Source: Stigmatella ashevillena
GTDB taxonomy: Bacteria; Myxococcota; Myxococcia; Myxococcales; Myxococcaceae
DNA length: 64,000 bases
Direction of reading: 5' to 3'
NCBI RefSeq assembly: GCF_028368975.1
Contig: NZ_JAQNDM010000002.1
Span: forward strand, 1,860,001 to 1,924,000
This document shows positions 3,800-63,886 of the stretch, piece after piece. The position numbers were made by a program, and so were the translations under genes. The notes under the pieces were generated by a model. It did no database searches. It was not told where the DNA came from and worked only from the letters and a program-made list of their open reading frames with translations. Every line of letters starts with the position of its first letter. Position 1 is the first letter of the stretch.

Positions 3800-6700
3800 A
3801 TGGCTCGTCTCTGGAAACTGGCGTTGCGCATCCTGGTGATGACTGTCGCCGCCCTGGCCGCTGCAGGGGGGCTACTCGCGTTCTCCCTGCAGCGGGATGC
3901 GCCACCAGCCGTGACCCCCGAAGTGTTCCCCCTGCTTGGACACTCCGACTCAGTCTTGTCTGTCGCCTGGAGCCCCGATGGCAGGACTCTGGCCTCCGGC
4001 AGTTTCGACAACACCCTCAAGCTCTGGGCTCCCTCCTCCGGCTCCCTCCTTCGCACCCTCTCCGGTCACTCCGACTCAGTCTTGTCTGTCGCCTGGAGCC
4101 CCGATGGCAGGACTCTGGCCTCCGGCAGTAACGACAACACCCTCAAGCTCTGGGCTCCCTCCTCCGGCTCCCTCCTTCGCACCCTCTCCGGTCACTCCGA
4201 CTCAGTCTTGTCTGTCGCCTGGAGCCCCGATGGCAGGACTCTGGCCTCCGGCAGTAACGACAACACCCTCAAGCTCTGGGATACCTCCTCCGGCTCCCTC
4301 CTTCGCACCCTCTCCGGTCACTCCTCCCCAGTCTCGTCTGTCGCCTGGAGCCCCGATGGCAGGACTCTGGCCTCCGGCAGTAACGACAACACCCTCAAGC
4401 TCTGGGATACCTCCTCCGGCTCCCTCCTTCGCACCCTCTCCGGTCACTCCTCCCCAGTCTCGTCTGTCGCCTGGAGCCCCGATGGCAGGACTCTGGCCTC
4501 CGGCAGTTTCGACAACACCCTCAAGCTCTGGGCTCCCTCCTCCGGCTCCCTCCTTCGCACCCTCTCCGGTCACTCCTCCACAGTCCGGTCTGTCGCCTGG
4601 AGCCCCGATGGCAGGACTCTGGCCTCCGGCAGTAACGACAACACCCTCAAGCTCTGGGCTCCCTCCTCCGGCTCCCTCCTTCGCACCCTCTCCGGTCGCT
4701 CCTCCTCAGTCTTGTCTGTCGCCTGGAGCCCCGATGGCAGGACTCTGGCCTCCGGCAGTTTCGACAACACCCTCAATCTCTGGGATACCTCCTCCGGCTC
4801 CCTCCTTCGCACCCTCTCCGGTCACTCCGACTCAGTCTTGTCTGTCGCCTGGAGCCCCGATGGCAGGACTCTGGCCTCCGGCAGTAACGACAACACCCTC
4901 AAGCTCTGGGATACCTCCTCCGGCTCCCTCCTTCGCACCCTCTCTGGTCACTCCTCCACAGTCTGGTCTGTCGCCTGGAGCCCCGATGGCAGGACTCTGG
5001 CCTCCGGCAGTGACGACAACACCCTCAAGCTCTGGGATACCTCCTCCGGCTCCCTCCTTCGCACCCTCTCCGGTCGCTCCGACTCAGTCTTGTCTGTCGC
5101 CTGGAGCCCCGATGGCAGGACTCTGGCCTCCGGCAGTAACGACAACACCCTCAAGCTCTGGGATACCTCCTCCGGCTCCCTCCTTCGCACCCTCTCCGGT
5201 CACTCCGACTCAGTCTTGTCTGTCGCCTGGAGCCCCGATGGCAGGACTCTGGCCTCCGGCAGTTTCGACAACACCCTCAATCTCTGGGATACCTCCTCCG
5301 GCTCCCTCCTTCGCACCCTCTCCGGTCACTCCTCCACAGTCTGGTCTGTCGCCTGGAGCTCCGATGGCAGGACTCTGGCCTCCGGCAGTGACGACAACAC
5401 CCTCAAGCTCTGGGATACCTCCTCCGGCTCCCTCCTTCGCACCCTCTCCGGTCACTCCTCCACAGTCCGGTCTGTCGCCTGGAGCCCCGATGGCAGGACT
5501 CTGGCCTCTGGCAGTGACGACAATACCCTCAAGCTCTGGGCTCCCTCCTCCGGCTCCCTCCTTCGCACCCTCTCCGGTCACTCCTCCACAGTCCGGTCTG
5601 TCGCCTGGAGCCCTGATGGCAGAGACATCGGTTCAGGAAGCATGGACGGAAGCACCGGACTCTGGGAGAGCACCGGTGATCTCAAGTGGTTCACTTGCGG
5701 CCTGCCAGGAGCCGTCTGGCTGACCTACCACCCACTACGGCTCCTCTACACAGCATCTCCGGATGGAGAGAGCTTGGCCGCAGTCCGCTTCGACTCGAGG
5801 ACCTCTCCCGTCTATCCCCTGGCCTACTATCGCGAGCAACTGCGGCAGGACTCTCTCTCCAACGCCTCGACCCAGACGCCGCCACTCATCCAACCCAGGC
5901 CGCTGCGCCTCGCATGGGACCGCTTTGAGAACAAGTCCCTCTGGTTCGGTGCGTTCACGGCGCTCTATCTCGTTGGCTTCGTGCTGGTCCTCTTCCGCGC
6001 TCACCGTCGCAACCCCATGACGCTGGCCCAGCAATTCTTCTCCAGCGCGGGCTTCCCCCGCATCCAGCGGCTCTCGAAGGACCTGCTCCGGCTTGGTTCC
6101 ACCTCCGAGGGCCACACAGCCTTCGCCATGCCCTGGCAGGAGCCCACCCCCTTCGTGCCTGACCAGCTACCTCACGGCAAAGGTGCCTCCGCTGCCGCCA
6201 CCACAGTCTACGTCCTCTATCAAGATCAGGTGCCCGAGGGCGCGCGGGACAAGCTCCGGGAGCGACTCGACTGCGAGGTCATTCCCTTGTCCACGCGGAC
6301 GCTCGACATCGCGCTCTCCGAGGGCACCTGTTCCACCATGCTCCGGGAAGTCGAGGACCGCTTTGCCACACGAATCGATCCCTACGACGAGGCCAAGCCC
6401 GTAGATGATCCCGCGTGGTTCCACGGCCGGGTGGACCTCATCGACCGGCTGTCCATGGCCCTGAAGCAGGGCCAGCACGCAGGCCTCTTCGGCTTGCGCA
6501 AGGTAGGCAAGACTTCGCTCATCAAGCAACTGCGCAACCGCGCCCAGGACACACCTGTCGTCTACATCGACTGCCAGGCCTCGGGGGTGGCGGCCGCCGG
6601 GTACTTCCAGCTCATCCTCGACAGGCTGCGTACCGAGTTCGGGCGGCTGGCAGTTCCCCACCTTCCTCCGCGCAAGAGAGTCTCCACTGTCGAAGAGTTC

Positions 6701-45108: not shown

Positions 45109-45600
45109 TTAGGGAACGGGTTTCGCATCCGTGTTCTGCCCAGCGAGGATTTGCCACTTCCCGGCGGTCTTCCTCATCACGTACTTCATCCGGGTTCGGA
45201 GCAGTCCAGGCTCGGTGTTTTGTACGCCTGGAGGCAATCCGCCGTGCCCTGTCACCTCGTGGACCGTGTCCACCACGGCGATGTCCTCTTGGGGGAACAC
45301 GATCTTGCGCACCGTCACCTTGACCTGACTTCCTTTGAACAGGGTCGAGAAGATGGCGGCGTGACGCTGTTCGATCTGATCGTGACCTTCAAAGACACTT
45401 CCCACGATGTTGACGAAATCGGCGTCCTGCGTGAAGTCCTTGGACCACGCCACCGCGTCACCGCTGTTCCACGCCTCGGCCTGAACCGCCACGAGTTGAT
45501 GGAGGTCCCTCTCATCTTGCGCGGGGTTGCCATGGGCACACGCCGTGGAAAACAGGAACAACCAAGTCAATACCGGCGCCACCGAAACGAGACGTGTCAT
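45109..45600 (-). CDS. SgcJ/EcaC-type (SnoaL-like) lipoprotein
   Basis: The start is ATG 45600 (MTRLVSVAPVLTWLFLFSTA, lipobox Cys 21); an ATG at 45621 adds seven residues. The 163-residue product has the DUF4440/SnoaL-like pattern: QLVAVQAEAWNSGDAVAWSK, DFTQDADFVNIVGSVFEGHD, FSTLFKGSQVKVTVRKI and GLLRTRMKYVMRKTAGKWQI. NTF2-like folds bind small molecules or act as dehydratases/isomerases; function is unknown. It is on the same strand as the TetR gene upstream. Confidence 0.85.
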   Translation of the reverse strand: MTRLVSVAPVLTWLFLFSTACAHGNPAQDERDLHQLVAVQAEAWNSGDAVAWSKDFTQDADFVNIVGSVFEGHDQIEQRHAAIFSTLFKGSQVKVTVRKIVFPQEDIAVVDTVHEVTGHGGLPPGVQNTEPGLLRTRMKYVMRKTAGKWQILAGQNTDAKPVP

Positions 45601-45649
45601 GTATCCATCCAAGAAAATCAAGGGGGACTTCCTTTGTCAAACAACCCAC

Positions 45650-46249
45650 TCAGGCAGAAAAGAGAAGCCGGAAAGACTGTTTTACCCAAGCTCGCCGTGT
45701 CTCGAGCGTGTCGAAGTCGATCAGGATGAACTGGTCAAACAGCCTGGGCATCATCGAGAGCAGGAACAGCGATGACCAGATCTGGGTCAGCGCCAGCCGA
45801 AGCTTGTCCTCCGCCAGGTGCGGCGTGACCGGGGCGAGCCGCAGGGCCAGTTCCCCGAGGAAGGCGTTGAGGCGCTGGACGGCGGCGCCGTCATACCGTT
45901 GATGGACGAGCGCATCGTGGAGGTGCGCGTGCGCAATGCGCGGATAGCGGGCCGTGTTGCCCACGACATCTTCGAGCAAGATTTCAAACGCCTCGCGGAT
46001 GCCCAGCCCCTCGGCCCGGAGGCGGTCGAAATCCATCAGCACGTTCCCGAAGGCCTCCTCCAGCGTCTGCTCCAGCGCCTGGGCAATCAGCTTGTCCTTG
46101 CTGCGGAAGTAGTAGCTGATGGCCGCGCTGTTCACCTGCGCCTCGCGGGCAATCTCCCGGATGCCGGTAGCGTCCAGACCGTCGCGCTCGATGCAGACGA
46201 TGGTCGCCCGGAGGATGCGCTCCTGAGCGTCCTGCTCCTTGGTACCCAT
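45650..46249 (-). CDS. TetR-family transcriptional regulator (CerR-type C-terminal domain)
   Basis: The start is ATG 46249 (MGTKEQDAQERILRATIVCI). In 199 residues, the N-terminal HTH (TGIREIAREAQVNSAAISYY FRSKDKLIAQ) is typical of the family, followed by a ligand-binding domain with LEDVVGNTARYPRIAHAHLH. The gene is divergent from the Tat-exported hydrolase gene. Four palindromic 9-mers in the gap are good operator candidates, so it likely represses itself and the hydrolase. Confidence 0.92.
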   Translation of the reverse strand: MGTKEQDAQERILRATIVCIERDGLDATGIREIAREAQVNSAAISYYFRSKDKLIAQALEQTLEEAFGNVLMDFDRLRAEGLGIREAFEILLEDVVGNTARYPRIAHAHLHDALVHQRYDGAAVQRLNAFLGELALRLAPVTPHLAEDKLRLALTQIWSSLFLLSMMPRLFDQFILIDFDTLETRRAWVKQSFRLLFSA

Positions 46250-46305
46250 CCCACCAAACCCTTGAAATGACGTGCGTTCCCACGGCGTCCTTGACACCGT
46301 CGCCC

Positions 46306-46353
46306 GATTCAATCTACTGATTCAATCAACCGATTCATTCCGGAGATTGAATC
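46306..46353. promoter_or_regulatory. Array of four GATTnAATC-type sites at exactly 13-bp spacing (TetR operator candidate)
   Basis: GATTCAATC (46306-46314 and 46319-46327), GATTCATTC (46332-46340) and GATTGAATC (46345-46353) start every 13 bases. Each is an odd palindrome GATT-n-AATC; the third has one mismatch. The array ends three bases before the hydrolase start codon at 46356. Confidence 0.8.
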
Positions 46354-46355
46354 CT

Positions 46356-47717
46356 ATGATCTACCCCGGTGGCGACAGTAACGCACGAAGACTCTCCCGG
46401 CGAGGCGTGCTGGTGGGCGCAGGGCTGTTCGCCGGTGGGGCCGCAGCCGCGGTGGGAACGCAGCGCGTGCTGGAGCCGGTCTCGACGGATGTCCCTGGCA
46501 TCAACCCGCGCAGCACGGACTGGTACGACCTGCGGCTGTCCGGTGATGGGCTGATGGACAACCAACTGCTGTGGTTCCTGGGCCACGCCACGCACGGGCA
46601 GAGCGATGTGGGCGACGTGCTGGAGACGGCGCAGCGCATCCAACCCGGCAACGAGCGGAGCTGGTTCGACGCATGGCTCCAGACGGCGCGGCGGGTCCAC
46701 GGCGTCGCCAGCACCGCCGAGTCGAAGGGCCACGCGCTGAGCGCGGGCCAGGCCTACGCGCGCGCCGCGAACTACTACCGCGCGGCGACGATGCACTACA
46801 CCGACACGGCGGACCCGCGGATGCTCGAGGTGACACGAACCGCCGCCACCACGTTCGAGAAGTCGAACGCGCTGCTCGGCTACGCGGCCCAGCCACTCGA
46901 CATTCCCTACGAGAACACCACCCTGCCCGCCTATTTCATCCGCTCGCCGCACGCGAAGCCGAGCGCCCCCATCCTCCTGCTCCACCAGGGCCTGCATGCC
47001 TGGCCGGAGGAGACGAAGTGGGTCTGGGAGGGCGCCTCCCTGCGGGGCTACCACGTGCTGATCTTCCACGGGCCCGGCCAGGGACGGGCGCTGCGTGAGA
47101 AGGGCCTCTGCTTCCGGCCCGACTGGGAGAAGGCGGTCCGCCCGGTGGTCGACGCGGCCGAGCGCATCAGCGGGGTGGACCCTCGCCGCATCCTCTTGAT
47201 GGGGCTCTCGTTCGGCGGTGCCCTGGCCCCCCGGGCGGCGGCCTTCGAGCCGCGCATCGCCCTGTGCATCGCCAATCCCGGCGTCCTGAGCTGGTGGGAA
47301 TCCACGAGCGGGCACTTCAATCGGTTCCTCCCAGGGGCCCTCTCCCTGCTGAAATCGCACCCGGAGCAGTTCGACCAGGCGATTCTGGGGCTCGCGGAGC
47401 GCTGGCCCACCGCGAAGTACTGGCTGCGCGACGTGTTCTGGAAGCATGGCGCCAGGACGCCTTCCGAGCTCTTCCGCAAGCTGGAGGAGTTCACCAACGA
47501 ATCCATCATCGACCGCATCCGCTGCCCAGTGCTCATCATGGAAGGGGAAGCGGAGGACGCGTCGCCGGGCCAATCCCAAAAGCTCTACGACGCGCTGCGA
47601 GGGCCCAAGCACTTGATGATGTTCACCCGGGACGAGGCCGCCCCCCTGCACTGCCAGGCGGCGTCCCTGGCGCTGGCGGAGCAACGGCTGTTCGACTGGC
47701 TCGACGAGAACGTGTGA
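46356..47717 (+). CDS. Tat-exported alpha/beta hydrolase (peptidase/esterase-like)
   Basis: The start is ATG 46356 (MIYPGGDSNARRLSRRGVLV). The twin-arginine motif SRRGVLVGAGLFAGG leads an exported protein. In 453 residues, the core has LLHQGLHAWPEETKWVW, HGPGQGRALREKG, the nucleophile elbow GLSFGG, then IMEGEAEDASPG (Asp region) and a His-containing AAPLHCQAA. This resembles alpha/beta hydrolases of the DUF1100/FrsA-like or BAAT-like type, with a helical N-terminal region. Substrate unknown. The neighbouring TetR gene and operator array suggest control by a small molecule, perhaps the hydrolase substrate. Confidence 0.88.
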   Translation: MIYPGGDSNARRLSRRGVLVGAGLFAGGAAAAVGTQRVLEPVSTDVPGINPRSTDWYDLRLSGDGLMDNQLLWFLGHATHGQSDVGDVLETAQRIQPGNERSWFDAWLQTARRVHGVASTAESKGHALSAGQAYARAANYYRAATMHYTDTADPRMLEVTRTAATTFEKSNALLGYAAQPLDIPYENTTLPAYFIRSPHAKPSAPILLLHQGLHAWPEETKWVWEGASLRGYHVLIFHGPGQGRALREKGLCFRPDWEKAVRPVVDAAERISGVDPRRILLMGLSFGGALAPRAAAFEPRIALCIANPGVLSWWESTSGHFNRFLPGALSLLKSHPEQFDQAILGLAERWPTAKYWLRDVFWKHGARTPSELFRKLEEFTNESIIDRIRCPVLIMEGEAEDASPGQSQKLYDALRGPKHLMMFTRDEAAPLHCQAASLALAEQRLFDWLDENV

Positions 47718-63096: not shown

Positions 63097-63318
63097 TCAA
63101 GGGAACAGCGGCGGCAGCGGAAACGGCAAGGGCAACGGAAGCGGCAAGGGCAAGGGCAAGGGCAGGGACAGCGGCGGCAGAATCCCCATCCGTGCCGGGC
63201 ACTTGCCCTCCACCGGCATGGCGGAAGCATCACCGCTCACCAGCGCCGCGAGAGCGATCCATGCCCCCATCAGCGTGCCTCGTAGGAACCGCACATGACC
63301 CATGTGGCACTTGCTCAT
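63097..63318 (-). CDS. Small secreted Pro/Leu-repeat protein, possible truncated paralogue
   Basis: The start is ATG 63318 (MSKCHMGHVRFLRGTLMGAW), which resembles the start of the protein at 62378-62932 (MGH--LRG) and has an export signal. In 73 residues, after PVEGKCPARMGILPP the C-terminus becomes a (LP)n tract (about 52-65), encoded by a simple GGGCAA-type repeat on the opposite strand. The tract may reflect slippage that truncated a longer paralogue. Function unknown. Confidence 0.4.
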   Translation of the reverse strand: MSKCHMGHVRFLRGTLMGAWIALAALVSGDASAMPVEGKCPARMGILPPLSLPLPLPLPLPLPLPFPLPPLFP

Positions 63319-63595: not shown

Positions 63596-63886
63596 ATGCG
63601 AAAGACACTCTTGGCCACATTGGCAGCCGCGATGGCTTGGGGAACTGCGGGCATCGCCGGTGCGCAGCAGAGCAGCACCTCTTTCCAACAACCCTTGGCT
63701 GGCAGCTACAGCCTCCAGCAACCCCTCGTCGGCAGTTACAACCTCCAGCAACCCCTCGTCGGCAGTTACAGCCTTCGGCAGCCGCTGGTGGGCAGTTACA
63801 GCCTCCAGCAACCGTCTGCCTCCAGCCATTACCTCCTTCCGCCACCGGCCAGCAGCACCTTCATCTATCAGGAGCCACGCCCGTAA
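63596..63886 (+). CDS. Small secreted decapeptide-repeat protein
   Basis: The start is ATG 63596 after GGAGGACATCAAC. The 96-residue protein MRKTLLATLAAAMAWGTAGI has a signal peptide ending at AGAQQ, then about four copies of QQPLVGSYSL (first copy QQPLAGSYSL, one NL variant, one RQ variant), then a Pro/Ser-rich end. No known family. The repeat unit is 30 bases at DNA level (about 63685-63810) and may bind cell-surface or extracellular matrix partners. Confidence 0.7.
   Translation: MRKTLLATLAAAMAWGTAGIAGAQQSSTSFQQPLAGSYSLQQPLVGSYNLQQPLVGSYSLRQPLVGSYSLQQPSASSHYLLPPPASSTFIYQEPRP

Follow-up and report, generated by a model that had tools for sequence, protein, structure and literature searches.

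Introduction

CecR (YbiH) is a TetR-family regulator of Escherichia coli K-12, whose targets are given as cecR-ybhGFSR and rhlE in the available text of two reports (PMC8249747, PMC6790063). TetR proteins of the QacR type, among them CgmR, CprB, SlmA, FadR, and DarR, place two dimers on overlapping palindromes, and precedents for such dimer-of-dimers binding are found in the portions of PMC6018408, PMC10636190, PMC6449355, and PMC4418694 available to us. For DarR, the overlapping palindromes go together with direct contacts between the dimers, according to the accessible part of PMC10636190, and EthR of Mycobacterium tuberculosis is described as an octamer on DNA, with several dimers per long operator (cited in PMC4418694, available in part). 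Overlapping palindromes and dimer-of-dimers binding are already known in the TetR family. Searches of the open-licence literature listed no paper on the operator described below, and we found no report there of a 13-bp step, of a palindromic 9-mer that allows operators to be chained, or of the recurrence of such an arrangement across phyla.

Here we describe a short repeat array of Stigmatella ashevillena located in a 64-kb stretch of DNA (hereafter the window), between a tetR gene and a gene for an alpha/beta hydrolase. The locus can be compared with that of cecR. The recognition helix of CecR, NIAAITYYF, is similar to NSAAISYYF of the regulator studied here, and the sequence TTAATCAAATGATTGA directly upstream of cecR in E. 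coli K-12 (4659-4674 of the cecR record, L087) matches the operator pattern derived below and is a predicted site; it occurs once in 8 kb, where 0.01 occurrences were expected. The two loci differ in that cecR has one operator and the present locus an overlapping series, and their target genes differ as well. While cecR adjoins the MFP-ABC exporter genes ybhGFSR, the tetR gene here adjoins the hydrolase gene together with an Omp85-domain gene, and a gene for a DUF4440 protein.

The array and its flanking genes

Four units of the 9-mer GATTnAATC start at 46306, 46319, 46332, and 46345 and form an intergenic array (46306..46353, no strand assigned) with a step of 13 bp. The original prediction had described four palindromic GATTnAATC sites with a period of 13 between a TetR gene and a Tat hydrolase gene. 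Its coordinates, step, and placement all proved correct, and three of the four units (46306, 46319, and 46345) are perfect GATTSAATC, but the third, GATTCATTC at 46332, has one mismatch and is not palindromic. The array is flanked by tetR (ATG at 46249, minus strand) and by the hydrolase gene (ATG at 46356, plus strand), and only 2 bp separate its end from the hydrolase start codon. GATTSAATC occurs three times in the window against 0.18 expected, a number that none of 100 shuffled sequences reached, and of its 26 places in the 10.95-Mb genome, three are in the array. When we searched the window for the spacer-centred operator TNAATCNNNNGATTNA with at most one mismatch, there were four matches, all within the array, against 0.34 expected, and again none of 100 shuffles reached that number. 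Perfect spacer-centred operators occur twice in the whole 10.95-Mb genome, both times in the array. A chance origin of the array was ruled out by these shuffles and by the conservation described below.

The tetR gene (45650..46249, minus strand) encodes a CecR-like TetR regulator of 199 aa, P0001, whose ATG start is kept in the orthologues. Its N terminus is a TetR_N helix-turn-helix (PF00440, residues 12-57, 49.4 bits against a cut-off of 24), and the predicted model is all-helical, with nine helices and a pLDDT of 82.9, in keeping with the TetR fold and its C-terminal domain for ligand and dimer contacts. In a fold search with this model, TetR structures filled the top of the list and E. coli CecR came first (9i1x, E 3e-5, TM about 0.6), although CecR was not strongly singled out, as many TetR entries scored within a factor of ten. 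P0001 stayed below the cut-offs of the NCBIfam models for the CecR equivalog (31.9 bits; cut-off 365) and for RefZ (47.2 bits; cut-off 180). A gene for a DUF4440/SgcJ-EcaC family protein (window 45109-45621) follows tetR in the same orientation.

The presumed target, P0002 (453 aa, 46356..47717, plus strand), is an alpha/beta hydrolase (Abhydrolase_6) that appears from its N terminus to carry a Tat signal. Among proteins of solved structure, those closest to it in sequence are 2,6-dihydroxypseudooxynicotine hydrolase (2jbw) and SMU_737 (3fnb), and its own genome holds no paralogue at E 1e-10. The presumed second gene of the operon encodes an Omp85-domain protein of 362 aa (PF01103; 47726..48814, plus strand), and this gene also stands behind the hydrolase gene in seven loci for which longer flanks were available (L032, L034, L035, L036, L038, L040, and L042). 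The record of L034 is titled Comamonas sp. KCTC 72670 and carries a myxobacterial locus; it is probably mislabelled.

Conservation in near relatives and predicted targets in trans

A protein search detected this TetR in 31 of 145 genomes of the order. Thirty of the loci were fetched and examined for the array, and the remaining one (G080), fetched later as L105, has the hydrolase gene and two perfect operators next to tetR. We scored each locus for four units at a step of 13 (maximum score 36), using shuffled upstream DNA as the null. Scores of 29-36 were obtained in 21 of the 30 loci and scores of 14-18 in the other nine, compared with a mean of 15.8 and a maximum of 22 in shuffled DNA. Two of the 21 array loci (L029 and L030), in which the automatic register lay one unit too far downstream, were included since their units were visible. 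The original prediction had named loss of the period in related genomes as evidence against it; the step was instead constant across the 21 array loci, as judged by eye.

The array was present in all 19 fetched loci with a hydrolase facing tetR, and absent from 9 of the 11 without one. In the other two loci (L021 and L022), the array was present though the hydrolase search was empty; the Omp85-domain gene is still there, almost complete in the former and for 127 aa in the latter. In L006 and L009, tetR is kept and the array is gone, with a seeming scrap of the hydrolase start left behind.

The perfect two-operator core, TNAATCNNNNGATTNAATC, was found in 30 of the 145 genomes of the order: 28 of these are among the 31 that have the TetR, and 2 are among the 114 that lack it (Fisher p 3e-24, a statistic that ignores kinship and is inflated by relatedness). 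In the remaining three TetR genomes (G096, G103, and G105), the copies have one mismatch, a looser pattern that can arise by chance. Together, the conservation and the co-occurrence support the proposal, already made in the original prediction, that the array would serve as an operator of the neighbouring TetR protein.

Nine genomes have tetR with no adjoining array. In eight of them, the operator precedes a gene for a paralogous Tat hydrolase with 47-50% identity (L088, L089, L090, L091, L092, L093, L096, and L124; one-mismatch copies in L091 and L124), and the ninth (G103) has a weak copy only, near a degenerate relative of the third target described next. The operator also stands ahead of a paralogous hydrolase gene in three further genomes (L097, L114, and L116). 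In four loci (L111, L118, L119, and L121, near 1501-1560), two overlapping operators cover the start codon of a gene for a 207-aa protein, which had no Pfam match and is likely a third target of the TetR protein. Operators at the paralogous hydrolase gene or at this third target explain why tetR would be retained after the facing hydrolase gene was lost. In myxobacteria, the paralogous Tat-signal hydrolases are predicted to form a small regulon.

Distant relatives and the binding unit

We next considered how the array is divided into binding units. Near relatives leave this unsettled by themselves: the halves 1-right, 2-left, 2-right, 3-left, 4-left, and 4-right are strongly conserved, and 1-left and 3-right weakly. 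A wider protein search at the class level gave only a 56-residue partial match (G092), which was left unused. Scanning named genomes with the TetR alignment, limited to helix-turn-helix peptides, gave 56 loci. Counts were made on 44 distant ones (L043-L086, with titles from Spirochaetes, Clostridia, Anaerolineaceae, Dialister, and others; the myxobacterial-type loci L031-L042, many of them contigs already counted above to judge by their length, were excluded), and these counts are not fully independent because several of the loci are close relatives of each other. With k varied from 0 to 20, the pattern T.AATC-Nk-GATT.A peaked at k=4 (33 matches, 22 loci) and at k=17 (18 matches, 17 loci); all remaining values of k gave 0-3 matches. 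The same half-site was repeated at a distance of 13 in 19 loci (36 matches), while the remaining distances between 6 and 25 gave no more than five matches each, and 26 gave nine. A single spacer-centred palindrome was present in L045, L048, and L049.

The excess at k=4, the loci with a single palindrome, and the copy at E. coli cecR indicate that the unit is probably best read as TTnAATC-N4-GATTnAA, a palindrome of about 18 bp centred on a 4-bp spacer. Read in this way, the array consists of three overlapping operators and a weak fourth that runs into the start codon. Predicted operator 1 (TCAATCTACTGATTCA, 46309..46324) is perfect, its register being taken from the relatives; predicted operator 2 (TCAATCAACCGATTCA, 46322..46337) is also perfect and is the best conserved operator among near relatives; and predicted operator 3 (TCATTCCGGAGATTGA, 46335..46350) is a pattern match with one mismatch. 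The possible weak operator 4 (TGAATCCTATGATCTA, 46348..46363; one mismatch) contains the hydrolase start codon and in most near relatives is not conserved as an operator. None of the four is assigned a strand.

A perfect operator was missing from 22 of the 44 distant loci, 19 of which have the NSAAI[SN]YY helix. Operators were present in 22 of 41 loci with this helix and in none of three without it (Fisher p 0.23), a comparison that is uninformative about the recognition helix, since this same peptide had served to collect the loci.

The distant loci also differ in gene content. In L071 and L073 (around 3946-5570), the operator lies ahead of tetR, followed by MFP-ABC exporter-like genes as in E. 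coli cecR-ybhGFSR; HlyD domains were shown for those of L071. In three Chloroflexi loci (L050, L053, and L058), the operator lies, by eye, between divergent short-chain dehydrogenase-like genes, one of which is followed by tetR, and this suggests another class of targets.

Proposed mechanism and alternative readings

Our main reading, to which we give a probability of about 80%, is that the divergently encoded CecR-like TetR protein has its operator in the array and would repress the operon of the Tat hydrolase and the Omp85-domain protein, with its dimers probably binding cooperatively. Each TetR dimer would recognize one palindrome of about 18 bp. The shared 9-mer, GATTnAATC, is in turn a palindrome, and this allows operators to be chained at a 13-bp step, as the three are here. 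On one side of the array is a conserved TTGAC, and on the other the start of the hydrolase gene. In the window, the TTGAC motif is part of a -35-like TTGACA (46291..46296, plus strand) 20 bp ahead of the first AATC, and TTGAC was present 19-33 bp ahead of the first AATC in all 21 array loci. Since no full sigma-70-like promoter passed a promoter scan of the locus, it is from the conserved TTGAC that the promoter was assigned. The presumed -10 element, TACTGA (46315..46320, plus strand), was placed by its position only, 18 bp past TTGACA, and falls within operator 1. GGAG (46342..46345, plus strand), the presumed ribosome-binding site of the hydrolase gene as judged from the sequence, falls within operator 3 and overlaps the last spacer of the array. 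With operator 1 over the presumed -10 element and operators 2 and 3 over the start region and ribosome-binding site, promoter blocking is the simplest model. Bound dimers would shield the DNA between the presumed -10 element and the start codon, ribosome-binding site included, and so repress the operon, and tetR itself may be repressed too. A small molecule, perhaps tied to the hydrolase substrate, might release the dimers, a guess made from the gene neighborhood. Weighing against the main reading are the distant loci that have no perfect operator, the negative promoter scan, the inflated co-occurrence statistic, and the low score of P0001 with the CecR model.

The arrangement shares features with the systems introduced above. 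The operators at 46309, 46322, and 46335 overlap, as in the QacR type, and overlapping palindromes are likewise common to DarR (PMC10636190) and the array. The 4-bp spacing of the half-sites is that of the QacR class, according to the available text of PMC6018408. By simple arithmetic (13 bp x 34.3 degrees per bp), neighboring dimers would stand about 86 degrees apart around the helix, whereas the same text quotes 130-145 degrees for QacR, SlmA, CprB, and CgmR. A further difference from the QacR type is that the shared 9-mer here is palindromic, which makes the series extendable. The likeness to EthR, by description only, lies in the placing of several dimers on one long operator, predicted here from sequence.

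Cooperative binding of several dimers is likely, by analogy with the known dimer-of-dimers TetR proteins and from the conservation of the overlapping pair. A second operator overlapping at +13 (6 or more of the 8 half-site bases) was present in 18 of the 22 distant operator loci, against a mean of 0.69 and a maximum of 4 with shuffled flanks, when the first operator of each locus was tested in either orientation for data and null alike; the overlapping pair is therefore the common form. The same operator and the same TetR protein could also work with mutually exclusive registers, so that dimers would occupy either operator 2 by itself or operators 1 and 3, at a distance of 26 bp, and extra copies would only raise the local affinity, with no contacts between dimers. 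Since three bases of the 9-mer belong to both of two neighboring operators, double occupancy may clash, and single operators do occur, as in L045, L048, L049, and E. coli cecR. We nevertheless regard exclusive occupancy as unlikely, given the retention of the overlapping pair in those 18 loci and the two dimers on overlapping palindromes described for TetR proteins in the accessible parts of PMC6018408 and PMC10636190.

The original prediction had instead taken each 9-mer as the site of one dimer, which would give four dimers in total. Most near relatives do preserve sites 2 and 4 as complete palindromes, and a point that we counted against the main reading is that the right half of site 4 is perfectly kept, yet has no good partner in the spacer-centred register, which leaves some room for 9-mer sites. 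In such a site, though, only about 5 bp would separate the half-sites. This is too little for a TetR dimer, since its two recognition helices are spaced by about one turn of the helix (34-37 A) according to the available text of PMC6018408, and relatives with a single operator retain the spacer-centred pair rather than the 9-mer. We therefore consider 9-mer binding sites improbable; the relatives point to the spacer-centred palindrome, by which the four 9-mers would make up three overlapping operators. That the array works at the level of the mRNA, by forming a hairpin across the presumed ribosome-binding site that it overlaps, is scarcely credible even though its sites could pair mutually, since folding was no better than that of shuffled sequences (z -0.74; 48 of 200 as good), on which ground RNA-level regulation was rejected, and since the same array stands well upstream of paralogous hydrolase genes and tracks the TetR gene across genomes.

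Returning to overlapping spacer-centred operators with cooperative dimers, their number is one at E. coli cecR, two in most operator-bearing relatives, and three here. We tentatively propose, with rather less than even confidence, that these proteins form a TetR subfamily spread over several phyla, in which the exact 13-bp step and the palindromic shared 9-mer would let dimers be added in a helical row, and operator number would tune cooperativity with the protein unchanged. Across phyla, the recognition-helix type NSAAI[SN]YYF would then be linked with a definite operator sequence and one constant overlapping arrangement, and the regulons of many uncharacterized TetR proteins would become predictable from sequence. 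The natural series of one, two, and three operators is suited to testing how TetR cooperativity scales.

Elsewhere in the window, a 126-bp tandem repeat (3941-5622; 13.3 copies, 95% match) probably belongs to a WD40-type repeat gene, a guess from the repeat unit. Short tandem repeats at 63112-63175 and 63701-63813 (GGCAAC-type and a 30-bp unit) are probably repetitive protein-coding sequence.
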